Program-made: the position numbers and the translations under genes
The notes under the pieces: model-generated
What the model saw: the letters and a program-made list of their open reading frames with translations, nothing else
What the model was told of the DNA's origin: nothing
Databases searched by the model: none
Source: an uncultured Lachnospiraceae bacterium
Lineage (GTDB): Bacteria > Bacillota > Clostridia > Lachnospirales > Lachnospiraceae
DNA length: 40,459 nt
Direction of reading: 5' to 3'
NCBI GenBank assembly: GCA_946631935.1
Contig: CAMPAP010000110.1
Span: 1-40,459 of the forward strand
Shown: positions 20,999 through 27,657 of the stretch, one piece after another
Numbering within the stretch: the first letter of the stretch is position 1
Layout: the number at the start of each line of letters is the position of its first letter

Positions 20999-22393
20999 TT
21001 ACTGATTCTCCTTATTTTTTATCTTTTTAAAATGATCCTTTATCTTTACTTCATAACCCTGTCCGTCCGGCCTGAAGAACTCCCTGCCGTCAAGCTCATA
21101 GGGAAGATACTGTTGCTCAACATAGTGGTTCGGGAAGTCATGTGCGTATTTATATCCCGTTCCCCTGCCAAGCTTTGCCGCTCCCTTATAATGGGCATCC
21201 TGAAGATGTGGCGGAACAGGTAAAGACCCGCTTGTCCTTACTTCACTTAAAGCCTCGTCTATTGCAAGATATGCCGAATTGGATTTAGGGGCTGTTGCAA
21301 CATATATGGCCGCTTCGGAAAGAATGATCCTTGCTTCCGGAAGCCCCACTTTTATCACGGCTTCAAAAGCTGCATTTGCAATCACCAGCGCATTGGGATC
21401 TGCCATACCCACATCCTCTGCGGCACAAATAACGATCCTTCTTGCTATAAAGCTGACTTCCTCACCGCCGTCAAGCATCCTTGCAAGATAATATACGGCA
21501 GCGTCGGGATCCGACCCTCTCATGCTCTTGATAAAAGCAGAGATCGTATCGTAATGTGAATCCCCGCCCTTATCATATCTGACTGCTTTTCTCTGAATGC
21601 TTTCCTTTGCAACTTCAAGAGTTATATGTATACCGGGCTTTGTAAGGTCTGCAGGGCCTGTTACAGCGCCTTTAACACTTTCTTCCGAAAACGGCTTTTC
21701 ATCCGGATCCGTTGTCAGGATCGAAAGCTCTAAAGCGTTAAGTGCATGTCTTGCATCTCCTCCGGATATATCAGCAATAAGCTCTAAGGCTTCATTATCC
21801 GCATAGGGGTTATATGCACCCATTCCCCTTTCTGTATCCGTTACTGCGGTCTTTAAAAGCTTTATCACATCTTCACGGGAAAGAGGCTTTAATTCAAATA
21901 TCATGGAACGGCTTATAAGAGCGCCATTAACCTCAAAATAGGGATTTTCCGTAGTTGCTCCGATAAGAGTTACTGTACCGTCCTCCACAAACGGAAGAAG
22001 ATAATCCTGCTGCCCCTTATTAAAGCGGTGTATCTCGTCTATAAAAAGGATGGTCTTACGATTACTCATAGCGTAAGTATCCTTAGCTTCCTTTACGGCA
22101 TCCTCCATATCCTTCTTGCCGGCGGTTGTGGCATTTATGGAAATGAAGCGGGCACTGGTAGCTCCGGCTATGACCTTTGCAATGGTGGTCTTACCGGTTC
22201 CGGGAGGACCGTAAAGGATAAGGGAACTTATCTTATCCGCCATTATGGCACGGTAAAGAAGCTTGCCCGGTCCAATGATATCCTCCTGACCTACTATCTC
22301 ATCGGGGGTCCTTGGTCTCATCCTTGAAGCAAGCGGACTTTCAGATTCTTTATTCTTTTCAGACATATAGTCAAAAAAATTAATCTGATCCAT
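20999..22393 (-). CDS. rarA: Replication-associated recombination protein A (RarA/MgsA AAA ATPase)
   Basis: SRMRPRTPDEIVGQEDIIG, LYGPPGTGKTTIAKVIA, FIDEIHRFNKGQQDYLLPFVEDG. Start at MDQINFFDYMSEKN (22393), overlapping the murD end by 14 nt. Confidence 0.95.
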   Translation of the reverse strand: MDQINFFDYMSEKNKESESPLASRMRPRTPDEIVGQEDIIGPGKLLYRAIMADKISSLILYGPPGTGKTTIAKVIAGATSARFISINATTAGKKDMEDAVKEAKDTYAMSNRKTILFIDEIHRFNKGQQDYLLPFVEDGTVTLIGATTENPYFEVNGALISRSMIFELKPLSREDVIKLLKTAVTDTERGMGAYNPYADNEALELIADISGGDARHALNALELSILTTDPDEKPFSEESVKGAVTGPADLTKPGIHITLEVAKESIQRKAVRYDKGGDSHYDTISAFIKSMRGSDPDAAVYYLARMLDGGEEVSFIARRIVICAAEDVGMADPNALVIANAAFEAVIKVGLPEARIILSEAAIYVATAPKSNSAYLAIDEALSEVRTSGSLPVPPHLQDAHYKGAAKLGRGTGYKYAHDFPNHYVEQQYLPYELDGREFFRPDGQGYEVKIKDHFKKIKNKENQ

Positions 22394-23627
22394 GTTCTTT
22401 AACGAGCCGGGCGAAAGCATCGCCTCTTTCCTCGAAATTCTTAAAATATCCGTATGACGCGGCTGCAGGAGACAGTACGCATCCTTTTCCTTCATCCGTC
22501 ATCTCAAAGGCTTTGTCCACAGCCTCTTTAAGATCTTCAACAAGGCAGACATTTGTAAGCCCCATAAGACCTTCTTCCACTATCCTTTTGCCCGTAGCAT
22601 ACATACAGATGAACCTGTACTCCTTATGCTCCTTTATGTAGTCCTCAAGAACCTTGTATGAAATGCCTCTGTCCATACCGCCTATAAGGATCACCTGGGC
22701 ATCGGGAATGCTCTCGCAGGCACTTATCGCAGCCTCGGGGATCGTGGAGATGGAATCGTCATACCAGTTGATGCCTGAATATGTTCCGATCTTCTTCATT
22801 CTGTGTGGAAGTGCTTCAAAGCTTTTTAAGGCTTCAAGGATCTTATCCTCCGGTATGCCGAACTCATCCATGCAGATCTTTTTTACAAAAAATGCATTTA
22901 CCCTGTTGTGCTCTCCGAAAAGCTCCGTTTCTATGCCTTCAAGTTCTGAAGGCGCAGGCACAACCCTTATCTGTGTGGATTCAGATGCGATTTCGGGAAC
23001 ATTCTCCCCGATATAAGCCCTGTCTCCTTTTTTCTGATTGCTGACTATATGGCTCTTTGCCATAAAGTAGGCTTCAAGACTTCCGTAATAATCAAGATGC
23101 TCTTCGTAAAGATCTAAGAATACGGATATCTTAGGGGAAGTCCGGGCATTTTTCAGCTGATGGCAGCTAAGCTCCAAGACCACCACCGCACCGCTTTTTG
23201 CGTCATCATAATAATCAAGGCACGGAAGTCCGATATTTCCCGCAAGGATGACTTTCCTGTCAAGGCACTTTGAAAGAACGTGGGCAAGCATCGAGGAAGT
23301 GGTGGACTTTCCCTTAGTGCCAGTAATACCCACAATACTCTCACGGAACTCAGAGATGAAGATTTCTGTCTGTGATGTCATTTTTTGAGAAAGACTCTCA
23401 ATGCCCGGATCATTTTCCATTCCGGAAGGCGGCCAGACTATGCCGGGGCTTTTTACGATAATGTCATATTCTCTGCCCCTGCCTGAAGCCATCTCCCCGG
23501 GAGTTCCTTCAAAAATATCCGTGCATGCGGGAAGGGTATGTGTTTTAAGCCACTTTTCAGTGGACTTTCCCTCTCTTCCGTATCCCCAGATAAGTATTTT
23601 TTTATCTTTGAAATTATCAGTGATCAC
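22380..23627 (-). CDS. MurD-type ligase (UDP-MurNAc-L-Ala--glutamate ligase), MurD2-like variant
   Basis: KDKKILIWGYGREGKSTEKWL, VGITGTKGKSTTSSMLAHVL, GNIGLPCLDYYDD, LELSCHQL, WYDDSISTIPEAAISA. Confidence 0.85.
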   Translation of the reverse strand: MITDNFKDKKILIWGYGREGKSTEKWLKTHTLPACTDIFEGTPGEMASGRGREYDIIVKSPGIVWPPSGMENDPGIESLSQKMTSQTEIFISEFRESIVGITGTKGKSTTSSMLAHVLSKCLDRKVILAGNIGLPCLDYYDDAKSGAVVVLELSCHQLKNARTSPKISVFLDLYEEHLDYYGSLEAYFMAKSHIVSNQKKGDRAYIGENVPEIASESTQIRVVPAPSELEGIETELFGEHNRVNAFFVKKICMDEFGIPEDKILEALKSFEALPHRMKKIGTYSGINWYDDSISTIPEAAISACESIPDAQVILIGGMDRGISYKVLEDYIKEHKEYRFICMYATGKRIVEEGLMGLTNVCLVEDLKEAVDKAFEMTDEGKGCVLSPAAASYGYFKNFEERGDAFARLVKEHGSD

Positions 23628-23697
23628 TTTTTACTCTTATTTATGTTAAAAAAGCCCATAAGCTAAAATATTATACCCTAATGAGTGCCTGTTTTAC

Positions 23698-23735
23698 AAT
23701 AAAAAGAACGACCTTCAAAGGCCGTTCTTTCTCAT
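23698..23735 (-). terminator. Rho-independent terminator downstream of the L,D-transpeptidase-like gene
   Basis: Minus strand GAACGGCCTTTGAAGGTCGTTCTTTTTATT. Confidence 0.85.
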
Positions 23736-23753
23736 AAGTCCGTTTACTGTCTG

Positions 23754-24458
23754 TCAGTTTCCGACAGTCACAAGCGTGCCGTCCGGCACTGTATTATAAA
23801 GCCACATTGCATCAGGTACGGAAAGCCTTACGCAGCCAAGGGATGCGGGGCTTCCGAGAGCTGCAACTTCTTCGGGAATGGGCTGGGCATCTCCCTTATT
23901 TTTGAAGCATACGGTATGGAACATATATCCTCCTGTCCTGAATCTCATGGACCAGATAGCATAGGTTCCGTCAGCCATATATACCCATCCGCCCTTAGCG
24001 GTATGCTCATAGATCTTAAAGGTTCCTGTGGGAGTCCTGTGTCCCTCTCTTCCCACCGAGCAGATCATGGTCTTTATAAGATGGGAATATGTACCGTCCT
24101 CACCGGCTTCAAAAACATAAGTAAGGCATCCTGTGCGGTCGACCATAATGTAATAGGGAGAACCGTTAAACCGGACCCCTGTGGGAAGATAGATATACGC
24201 ATTTCCGTTTCCGGATATATTGTATGCGGCGCTGGGGGACCTGCCTTCATTTTTTCCAAAATGAATGTAATGCCAGTAAAGAGCATCCTTGTCATCCCCG
24301 GCAGAAGCATAAACATCCGGATTATTCCGGGCATAATATGCGGGATCGAACCAGTCAGGGATCGTCCCGGCGGGTTCGGCCGCATTAACCTGTGACCTGA
24401 AGAAAAGCACGCTAAATGCCAAAGCTGCGACTGTAAGTACTATTTTTATCTTTTTCAT
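23754..24458 (-). CDS. Secreted L,D-transpeptidase (YkuD)-like protein with N-terminal FDPxYYA repeat
   Basis: Signal peptide; WFDPAYYARNNPDVYASAGDDKDALYWHYIHFGKNEGRSP; YkuD-like segment ending SPASLGCVRLSVPDAMWLYNTVPDGTLV. Confidence 0.88.
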   Translation of the reverse strand: MKKIKIVLTVAALAFSVLFFRSQVNAAEPAGTIPDWFDPAYYARNNPDVYASAGDDKDALYWHYIHFGKNEGRSPSAAYNISGNGNAYIYLPTGVRFNGSPYYIMVDRTGCLTYVFEAGEDGTYSHLIKTMICSVGREGHRTPTGTFKIYEHTAKGGWVYMADGTYAIWSMRFRTGGYMFHTVCFKNKGDAQPIPEEVAALGSPASLGCVRLSVPDAMWLYNTVPDGTLVTVGN

Positions 24459-24471
24459 TATCTATACCTGC

Positions 24472-24486
24472 ATGGCCTAAGGCCAT
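24472..24486. promoter_or_regulatory. 15-bp palindrome ATGGCCT-A-AGGCCAT in the 5' region of the L,D-transpeptidase-like gene
   Basis: Perfect 7-bp arms, 13 nt upstream of the start codon. Confidence 0.5.
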
Positions 24487-24647
24487 TATCCGTCCTTATT
24501 TTTTCCGACTTTTTTCGTCAGTTCGTCCACTTTAACATACTTTGATGCAGGGAACAATCGAATATATGTTTCCGGAAAAAGCTTGTTTACGTAATCTGAA
24601 AAAGAACAACAATATGTTGTATGAAACGAGTCAAAGTATTCTATACC

Positions 24648-24676
24648 TTGTAAAAAAAAAATAAATATTTTATAAT
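24648..24676 (+). promoter_or_regulatory. Promoter for the DUF3048 lipoprotein gene: TTGTAA-17-TATAAT
   Basis: Hexamers with 17-nt spacing. Confidence 0.65.
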
Positions 24677-24772
24677 ACTCTTGTATGTCAATATGTTGGT
24701 GTTATTAACGCTGACAGGACAAATTACTGAGGCGCGTTTTTTACGCCAAAGCTACAAAAACTGGAGGATATT

Positions 24773-25975
24773 ATGAAATCAAAGAAAGTTATCGCAATGA
24801 TCGCGATCGCAGCAATGACGGCATCTCTTACCGCCGGCTGCGGAAAAGAAGAGGCTGAGTCTCCTGCAGGCAACGCATTTGATTCACAGCCCATTGTCAC
24901 TGTTGACGACACTGCACCTGCTTCTACTGACACAGAGCCTGCTGAAGAGCCCGGTCTTGAGATGCCTGAAGGATGCTATGCTTCAGAGCTTACCGGTCTC
25001 CCCACTCCCAATGAGATCAAGGACCAGCGTCCCATTGCCGTAATGGTGGACAATGAGAAAACAGCTCTTCCCCACTACGAAGTTGCCGATGCCGACATCG
25101 TCTATGAGATCATGAACTCTACCGCAAACGACAGAGTCACCAGACTGATGTGCGTACGCAAGGACTGGAAGAACATCAAGCAGATGGGATCCATCCGTTC
25201 CACACGTCCCACCAACATTCCCCTTGCAGGTGAGTACAATGCGATCCTCATCCACGACGGTGGCCCCATCTATATCAATGACTATATCGCAAAAGCTTAC
25301 TGCGACCACCTTTCCAGCGGCTTCTGCCGTTTTGACAACGGAAAGAGCTGGGAGTACAAGGAGTATGTAACCGCTGAACCAACCCAGGGTGTAACCCTTA
25401 ACGGCGGAACAGCTACTTACGACGGACTTATCCAGCGTATCTCACAAGCTAACATCTCTCCCACCTACAATTCATATGCACCCAAGAGAGATACCCACTT
25501 TATCTTAAGAGATTACGGTGTTGACATGACTCCCACTGAAATGGGATACAAGGATGTAAAAGCAGCAAACGAGGTTTCCATCGGAACCTTTAAGCACACC
25601 CAGTCAACACTTAAGTACAATCCCGAGACCTCAACATATGATTATTATCTCTACGGAGAGCTTCAGAAGGATGCTGAGGACGGCGAGGTTGTAACCTTCA
25701 ACAACGTATTCCTTCAGAGCTGTGATTTCCATCAGTTCGATGAGCACGGATATCTTGTTTACTTCTACATGAGTGAAGAGCTTCAGGAAGGCTGGTATAT
25801 CACCAACGGAGAAGCTACCAAGGTTCACTGGCAGAGACAGATGCCCGATCCTTATCTTGATTATGACATCACCAAGTTCTATGACGAGAACGGCGATGAA
25901 GTCAAGATCAACCCCGGTAAGACCTATATCTCAATGGTTCCCAAGGACGGATGGAGCACCGTTAACATCAAGTGA
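24773..25975 (+). CDS. DUF3048-domain lipoprotein (YerB-like)
   Basis: Lipobox LTAGC; LTGLPTPNEIKDQRPIAVMVDNEKTALPHYEVADADIVYEIM. Confidence 0.9.
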   Translation: MKSKKVIAMIAIAAMTASLTAGCGKEEAESPAGNAFDSQPIVTVDDTAPASTDTEPAEEPGLEMPEGCYASELTGLPTPNEIKDQRPIAVMVDNEKTALPHYEVADADIVYEIMNSTANDRVTRLMCVRKDWKNIKQMGSIRSTRPTNIPLAGEYNAILIHDGGPIYINDYIAKAYCDHLSSGFCRFDNGKSWEYKEYVTAEPTQGVTLNGGTATYDGLIQRISQANISPTYNSYAPKRDTHFILRDYGVDMTPTEMGYKDVKAANEVSIGTFKHTQSTLKYNPETSTYDYYLYGELQKDAEDGEVVTFNNVFLQSCDFHQFDEHGYLVYFYMSEELQEGWYITNGEATKVHWQRQMPDPYLDYDITKFYDENGDEVKINPGKTYISMVPKDGWSTVNIK

Positions 25976-26000
25976 TCTGAAGATAGTTAAAAGGTAATGC

Positions 26001-26034
26001 AAAAGACCGCAGCGTGCGCTGCGGTCTTTTTTTC
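26001..26034 (+). terminator. Rho-independent terminator downstream of DUF3048 gene
   Basis: AAAAGACCGCAGC-GTGC-GCTGCGGTCTTTTTTT. Confidence 0.92.
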
Positions 26035-26078
26035 CTGATACGGACAGCTACCAGAATTCAATTTTTGCTCCATAAACC

Positions 26079-27428
26079 TTAAACTTCCTCGATGGCTTTT
26101 CTTAACCTGCTCTTAAAGACCGGAGGAACACTGTTTTCATCACACCATTCCTTCATCAGAACGCTCAAGGGATGTGAATTTAAGGAAGTGATCTCCTTTT
26201 TATATCTTTCGGTAAGAAGGCTCTTGCCGCCGGTTGCGATATAATTCTCCAGGCAGCTTACAACTTCACGCCTTGTTCCTACGCATTCAAAGGGTTTGTT
26301 TTCATTAAGCCCCACAAGCTCCCTGAAGTCCTCATCAAAGGATTCCTTATCAAGAAGCTTCTCACCAAAGATCCTTATAAGCTCATCTTCCGGAATAAAA
26401 GGACTGAGTATGATGTAGACAAAGAGGCACTTGGGACATGCACAGCACCATATGCCCTTCTTGCTTCCCCTGTTACAGGATCGGAACACATCAAAATATG
26501 CTTTTCCGCGCTTTGCAAAAATTCCCGCGATCTGAACCTCTGTGAAGGGACGGAGCAGTGAAAAATAGTGAATGTCCGAATCCGTAAGTCCCTCTATATA
26601 TTCATCAAAATCCTCTTCAAACTCATAGCTCTTGGAGTACTGATGATTGATCTTGGTTCCGGGTACGGTACTTTCATTTGCACTAGTCTCGTTGGAAAGT
26701 GCGATGTATTTGATTCCCTGGATATACGCGGTTATAACCGACGAAAAAGCAAATACCGCGGAAATGGGGATATGGCCGTTCATATACCCTTCCGCATTGA
26801 GCTCGATGATCTTTTGATCAAGGGTTCTTTTTGCGGTATAGACGCCTTTTTTGTGATCGCACTTATTTATTACATTAGTGGCGGTGTCGTTTTCGTTCAC
26901 CACATATGTAATGATATCCTCTCCTCTTAATATCTCAAGGCTCACTACAGAATCCTTGCCGCCTCCCACGGGAACAAGGCAGCCATCGTAAACCCTGTCA
27001 TCATGAAGAGGAACCGCTTCATCCACGGTCTCGCACTCAAATCTTACAAGCCTGTCCCTTGAAACATTGATGCCGTTCCTGTAGAGGAACTCTCCGAGAC
27101 CGTTGTAATAGAGTTTGCTCCACCAATCCTTCTGTGCGGAAGAAAGCTTGCCGCATTTTATCAGGACTCTCTCGGGGCAGACCGCCTTATAATAACTGAT
27201 GGTCTCAACAAGTCCCAGTGAAAAGATAAGGGATCTGAGTATGGGATCATTTATATCCACGCTTTTTCCCATAAGAGGAAATCTCCACTCAGGAGCAAAA
27301 TCCTTAAGTCCCGGGATGGAAAATCTGTATCTTATAAAAAGATCACCATCATCTATACGGCATTCGTATTTATTATATTCAAAGGTTGTATATAATTTTC
27401 TGAGATCATCAAACTGTTTCTGTGACAT
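26079..27428 (-). CDS. murL: MurL-like UDP-N-acetyl-alpha-D-muramoyl-L-alanyl-L-glutamate epimerase
   Basis: YYNGLGEFLYRNGI, VPVGGGKDSVVSLEIL, GYMNGHIPISAVFAFSSVITAYIQGIKYIALSNETSANESTV, INHQYSKSYEFE, YFSLLRPFTEVQIAGIFAK, CCACPKCLFVYIILSPF, KPFECVG, as recalled for Xanthomonas MurL. Start at MSQKQ. Confidence 0.82.
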   Translation of the reverse strand: MSQKQFDDLRKLYTTFEYNKYECRIDDGDLFIRYRFSIPGLKDFAPEWRFPLMGKSVDINDPILRSLIFSLGLVETISYYKAVCPERVLIKCGKLSSAQKDWWSKLYYNGLGEFLYRNGINVSRDRLVRFECETVDEAVPLHDDRVYDGCLVPVGGGKDSVVSLEILRGEDIITYVVNENDTATNVINKCDHKKGVYTAKRTLDQKIIELNAEGYMNGHIPISAVFAFSSVITAYIQGIKYIALSNETSANESTVPGTKINHQYSKSYEFEEDFDEYIEGLTDSDIHYFSLLRPFTEVQIAGIFAKRGKAYFDVFRSCNRGSKKGIWCCACPKCLFVYIILSPFIPEDELIRIFGEKLLDKESFDEDFRELVGLNENKPFECVGTRREVVSCLENYIATGGKSLLTERYKKEITSLNSHPLSVLMKEWCDENSVPPVFKSRLRKAIEEV

Positions 27429-27657
27429 ATATGCCTCTTTTTTATGAGTTTTAGTGCGTTTTCTACGAAAAAAAATCACTTAAACATTTTACCATAAATT
27501 TCAAAGTTCGGCACCTGCGCCTTTCTATTTCCCAAAAATTCCTTTTTCGGGATTTTTCAGTTTTCCGTAAAGACTTCCGATTTTTCACAAAGTATTCTTT
27601 GAGGTTTTCCGTATTTTAACATCGTGTAAATCCGGGATGCGTTGTATAATGATACTT

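Follow-up and report, generated by a model that had tools for sequence, protein, structure and literature searches.

A MurL homologue and a MurD2-type ligase as a predicted alternative route to peptidoglycan D-glutamate in a Lachnospiraceae bacterium and other Bacillota and Bacteroidota

The murL and murD2 genes and their products

We analysed a 40,459-nucleotide stretch of DNA (the window; contig CAMPAP010000110.1, our C110) from a metagenome-assembled genome (MAG; GCA_946631935.1, our G000; 1.76 Mb, 68% complete) of an uncultured Lachnospiraceae bacterium. Two genes on its reverse strand encode a MurL homologue of 449 amino acids that matches the NCBIfam model NF041275 (murL, 26079-27428) and a MurD-type ligase of 415 amino acids with the P-loop GTKGKS that matches TIGR01087 and is predicted to add L-glutamate (L-Glu; murD2, 22380-23627). 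An earlier note, made from the sequence alone, had located both reading frames and their strand correctly, and had proposed that they encode the MurD2/MurL bypass established in Xanthomonas. The reference system is that of Xanthomonas oryzae, with the genes XOO_1320/XOO_1319 (Feng et al. 2017; review, PMC8788868). In this scheme the MurD2 ligase would attach L-Glu to UDP-MurNAc-L-Ala, and MurL would then flip the attached residue to D-Glu, using ATP. MurL may do so by activating the glutamate carboxylate through adenylation; AMP formation has been published for Xanthomonas MurL. Both in the window genus and across many more Bacillota and Bacteroidota, the pair would replace glutamate racemase (MurI) and the dcw-cluster MurD. 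The MurL profile match, the residues and phylogeny of the ligase and the missing MurI support the proposed bypass in Lachnospiraceae, and we consider it very probable that the window locus encodes this alternative route to peptidoglycan D-Glu. We infer the catalytic activities and in vivo role of the two proteins from their homology, from the specificity residues and phylogeny of the ligase, from the linkage and fusion of the genes, from mutual exclusion with MurI and from a predicted PP-loop fold.

The murL frame can be extended upstream to a GTG at 27479, and the start conserved in the genus, MSQKQFDDLRK, lies at 27428. NF041275 (MurL) was the only NCBIfam model to match the protein (275 bits, E 7.6e-82, residues 63-443), which bears out the MurL-like assignment made earlier. 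All five segments by which the protein had been recognised were found, and the majority of their residues are invariant across 58 homologues. Overall identity to the annotated MurL of Xanthomonas sacchari is 31% (135/435). An alignment of the window MurL with 57 Bacillota and Bacteroidota relatives contained 67 invariant columns, and the X. sacchari protein is identical at 56 of them. Residues common to all these proteins include the PP-loop GGG-DS, NE-S, NHQ-SK, SCN, WC, KC and KPFEC-G. The attribution of the DNA to Lachnospiraceae agrees with the isolate AC2028, whose MurL is 79% identical to that of the window.

No Pfam family was found for MurL; matches to DUF6395, LPD34 and HD were weak and not significant. 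A profile of the MurL family found TtuA, a PP-loop ATPase, across the GGGKDS stretch (E 1.3e-4). The AlphaFold2 model of the window MurL had a mean pLDDT of 95.3 and a pTM of 0.93, and its top Foldseek match in the PDB was the QatC chain of 9y02, a QatB-QatC complex (448 columns, E 1.1e-4, probability 1.00, TM 0.37). TtuA ranked next, and argininosuccinate synthase appeared lower among the matches (E 0.04). The Cys4 motif of MurL (C318-x9-C328-x2-C331-x2-C334) is spaced nearly as in the QueC site (E. coli CYNGFKGDGCGHCAAC); when E. coli QueC and MurL were compared by hhalign (E 0.008, probability 4.9%), the likeness was confined to this motif. Sequence and model together suggest that MurL is a PP-loop-fold enzyme. 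MurL has been described as lacking known conserved domains, using one ATP and yielding AMP, and the working hypothesis holds that it adenylates the alpha-carboxylate (PMC8788868; PMC5808125). A PP-loop fold would fit this hypothesis of ATP-to-AMP activation of the glutamate carboxylate. An anti-phage, QatC-like role for MurL was dropped, as no PADLOC defence model matched.

The ligase was assessed at positions given in E. coli MurD numbering. Its P-loop reads GITGTKGKSTT, which the earlier note had regarded as unusual and which proved diagnostic: X. sacchari MurD2 and 86/86 MurL-linked ligases have the lysine of GTKGK (K113), whereas E. coli MurD and all 30 canonical MurD of Lachnospiraceae have asparagine there. 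Exchange of two residues in Xanthomonas MurD2 (E197D/R358K) changes its specificity from L-Glu to D-Glu; these X. oryzae positions correspond to D182 and K348 of E. coli MurD, which can take L-Glu after a K319T substitution (PMC8788868). In an alignment of 127 ligases the window ligase has E182, I319 and R348, as does X. sacchari MurD2. R348 was found in 81/81 and I319 in 83/83 MurL-linked ligases, and canonical Lachnospiraceae MurD had D182, K319 and K348 (25/25). A maximum-likelihood tree separated 31 canonical MurD, including that of E. coli, from 95 MurD2-type ligases (SH-aLRT 99), with the window ligase and X. sacchari MurD2 on the MurD2 side; both the X. sacchari and the E. coli sequences sit on long branches, and the exact placement of X. 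sacchari MurD2 is unsure. Residues and clade placement both agree with the MurD2 type claimed for the ligase.

An alternative is that the ligase is an ordinary D-Glu-adding MurD relocated from the dcw cluster, with D-Glu supplied by an unrecognised racemase and MurL doing another job. TIGR01087 does name the protein murD above its cut-off (261 bits against 212), and overall identity, which is not decisive by itself, is 28% whether the ligase is compared with E. coli MurD or with X. sacchari MurD2. The MurD2-type specificity residues, the P-loop lysine and the position within the MurD2 clade argue against relocation, as do the linkage and fusion of MurL to such ligases and the distribution of racemases, both described below.

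Gene linkage and distribution

MurL was sought in one genome per species, and linkage was counted in the best 80 loci. At least 574 stretches encode MurL, and the matches listed include the cultured Pseudobutyrivibrio xylanivorans and Ruminococcus flavefaciens. MurD2 was present at 75 of the 80 loci. It lies directly after MurL in 70 of these 75 (in five of them with a MurL frame set by a tblastn match only), and in three more the two form a single fusion, so that the genes are adjacent or fused in 73. The fusion proteins, of about 900 amino acids, come from one Bacillota and two Bacteroidota (L155:1524-4226, L158:5986-8679 and L161:5962-8682), and those of L155 and L161 were confirmed by profile. 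In the other two loci, both from close relatives of the window, MurD2 lies 2.7 kb from MurL. The murL-murD pair of X. sacchari, carried on a plasmid, is arranged as in most relatives, both in gene order and in overlap.

The window genes are 2.45 kb apart. Because MurL and MurD2 are adjacent or fused elsewhere, this separation is a peculiarity of the genus. As had been noted earlier, two genes lie between them: a YkuD-domain, L,D-transpeptidase-like protein (23754-24458, reverse strand; PF03734, E 4e-20) and a DUF3048 lipoprotein (24773-25975, forward strand, opposite to murL and murD2; PF11258 and PF17479). Genes of these two kinds between murL and murD2 are specific to the window genus, as synteny shows for the YkuD gene. 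Both genes are probably bystanders outside the bypass, since murL and murD2 are directly adjacent in other lineages. Immediately downstream of murD2 is a gene for a RarA/MgsA-type AAA ATPase (20999-22495, reverse strand; PF12002, E 7e-72), which is kept as the murD2 neighbour across the genus and in genome G144; no role in the bypass is evident for it. The claim that the ligase gene stands outside a dcw cluster thus holds, and the canonical MurD genes inspected in relatives are flanked by MraY and FtsW.

Two further MurL homologues were observed. One (L181; 3881-5248), 42% identical to the window MurL, is in an 8.9-kb unverified 'Bacteriophage sp.' record (MT836755.1) that is probably a bacterial contig. 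The other is a divergent homologue on a plasmid of the actinobacterium Pseudonocardia alni (L180:3764-5164), with no annotated MurD beside it.

Absence of glutamate racemase and the bypass weighed

No MurI scored above the curated cut-off in the window MAG or in the 31 genus genomes searched, and the window ligase was the sole MurD above cut-off in the MAG; both searches had been suggested in the earlier note. MurL was present in 27/31 genus genomes and in 9 of the 10 good ones. Across the family, sampled as 150 genomes from 149 genera, MurL was found in 11, MurI in 130 and both in none (Fisher p 1.1e-11, with shared ancestry ignored). MurI above cut-off was likewise found in none of 49 further MurL-bearing Bacillota and Bacteroidota genomes, which include AC2028, apparently the same isolate as G002. 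A strong D-amino-acid aminotransferase (about 200 bits or more) was detected in 5/53 genomes, none of them MurL-bearing. In most MurL genomes the MurL-linked ligase is the only MurD above cut-off. Separately, three genomes (G063, G067 and G141) have a canonical MurD but no MurI above cut-off and no clear D-amino-acid aminotransferase.

The MAG does contain two genes of the Asp/Glu racemase family, which could be taken to favour a relocated MurD fed by a racemase. Both match TIGR00035, the aspartate/amino-acid racemase type, and are not MurI. Moreover, the family was wholly missing from six MurL genomes tested, and G009, of the window genus, is among the genomes that lack it. With the ligase residues, phylogeny and linkage, these results make relocation very unlikely. 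In the same MAG, an aspartate-type racemase gene stands beside genes for an ATP-grasp-like protein and a Mur ligase (L001, contig C68), a group that perhaps serves a D-Asp or similar cell-wall branch.

It is also conceivable that the product of MurL and MurD2 is a secondary glycopeptide or natural product instead of the essential peptidoglycan precursor. MurL resembles QueC/QatC-type PP-loop enzymes that carry out other modifications, and two MurL genomes (G124 and G131) also keep a canonical MurD. We regard this as extremely unlikely, given that most MurL genomes have a sole MurD above cut-off and lack MurI and the aminotransferase, that MurL is retained in nearly all good genomes of the genus, and that no natural-product genes surround the locus. 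The double set in G131 and G124 looks like an intermediate of replacement. In G131 a dcw-cluster MurD with D182, K319 and K348 (L047) was found together with MurL/MurD2 elsewhere (L067); no MurI was found.

Several observations weigh against the MurD2/MurL bypass. The window MurL scored 275 bits, compared with the curated NF041275 cut-off of 700 bits; this was set for Xanthomonadales, and because of it the Bacillota and Bacteroidota homologues are left unnamed by NCBIfam. Foldseek TM-scores for the MurL model were modest (0.37 to QatC). Position 182 of the MurL-linked ligases is not universal, being E in 64 and D in 19. As the MAG is 68% complete, the absence of MurI rests on relatives, and nearly complete relatives agree with the MAG on this point. 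Finally, MurL is not invariably the partner of a MurD2 ligase, as eight genomes hold the ligase but no MurL.

These eight genomes (G003, G019, G020, G048, G062, G101, G104 and G161; loci L071-L072 and L074-L079) lacked an intact MurL when searched with a sensitive family profile, had no MurI above cut-off and no clear aminotransferase, and in six the Asp/Glu racemase family was wholly missing. Their ligases retain I319 and R348 in all eight cases and E182 in seven, and occupy at least five separate positions in the MurD2 tree (G003/G019/G020; G048; G062/G161; G101; G104). The flanks of the ligase gene are intact in most. G101, which is 100% complete, has a 246-residue MurL remnant without GGGKDS directly upstream of the ligase (L074:7286-8026, reverse strand). 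Inspection by eye for a common replacement epimerase beside these genes found none, and the neighbours differ. We tentatively suggest, with somewhat less than even confidence, that at least five Lachnospiraceae lineages kept an L-Glu-type MurD2 and lost MurL, with neither MurI nor a D-amino-acid aminotransferase present. Either MurL was replaced by another enzyme, or the L-residue is retained, or the gene was missed by several assemblies. The last option is unlikely for G048, G101, G104 and G161 (95-100% complete) and less unlikely for G019 and G020 (80-81%).

Implications and comparison with known systems

Nearly all stem peptides carry D-Glu at position 2, and MurI is regarded as an essential antibacterial target. 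Our data point to a considerable number of gut and rumen Bacillota and Bacteroidota that manage without MurI by means of a MurD2/MurL bypass. MurI inhibitors should spare MurL-bearing species, and inhibitors of MurD2/MurL should not be assumed to act on Xanthomonas and Stenotrophomonas alone. The K113/I319/R348 signature offers a simple annotation test for MurD2, as the NCBI MurD model now labels such ligases D-Glu ligase. The predicted PP-loop/QueC-like fold may provide a structural frame for the unexplained ATP use by MurL.

The pathway itself is already known; as far as the literature searched shows, what is new is its Bacillota and Bacteroidota hosts, in which it would replace MurI. We found no report of MurL in these phyla in the open-access literature; most subscription papers were outside the search, and no claim of priority is made. 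Hosts named in a 2021 review are Gammaproteobacteria, Alphaproteobacteria and actinobacteria, with Bacillota and Bacteroidota not listed (PMC8788868). One review mentions low-similarity MurL orthologues in cyanobacteria, a fungus and an amoeba.

Compared with the X. oryzae pathway, the window system has a homologous MurL, a ligase that matches in specificity residues and P-loop, and, in most relatives, the same gene order with a small overlap; MurI and D-amino-acid aminotransferase are likewise absent. It differs in its hosts, in the distance between the two genes in the window genus, and in that some relatives have MurL-MurD2 fusions and some have MurD2 without MurL. In the canonical system of E. 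coli and most Lachnospiraceae, MurI is paired with a MurD that has N113, D182, K319 and K348 and is encoded between MraY and FtsW, whereas the window ligase has K113, E182, I319 and R348, lies outside dcw, and is accompanied by no detected MurI. MurL has a PP-loop, GGGKDS, and would resemble QatC, QueC and TtuA (9y02, E. coli QueC and 5b4f) in its predicted fold and ATP-to-AMP chemistry; its C-x8/9-C-x2-C-x2-C motif has QueC-like spacing. It shows no significant full-length sequence match to these proteins and no match to a PADLOC model, and its substrate would be different.

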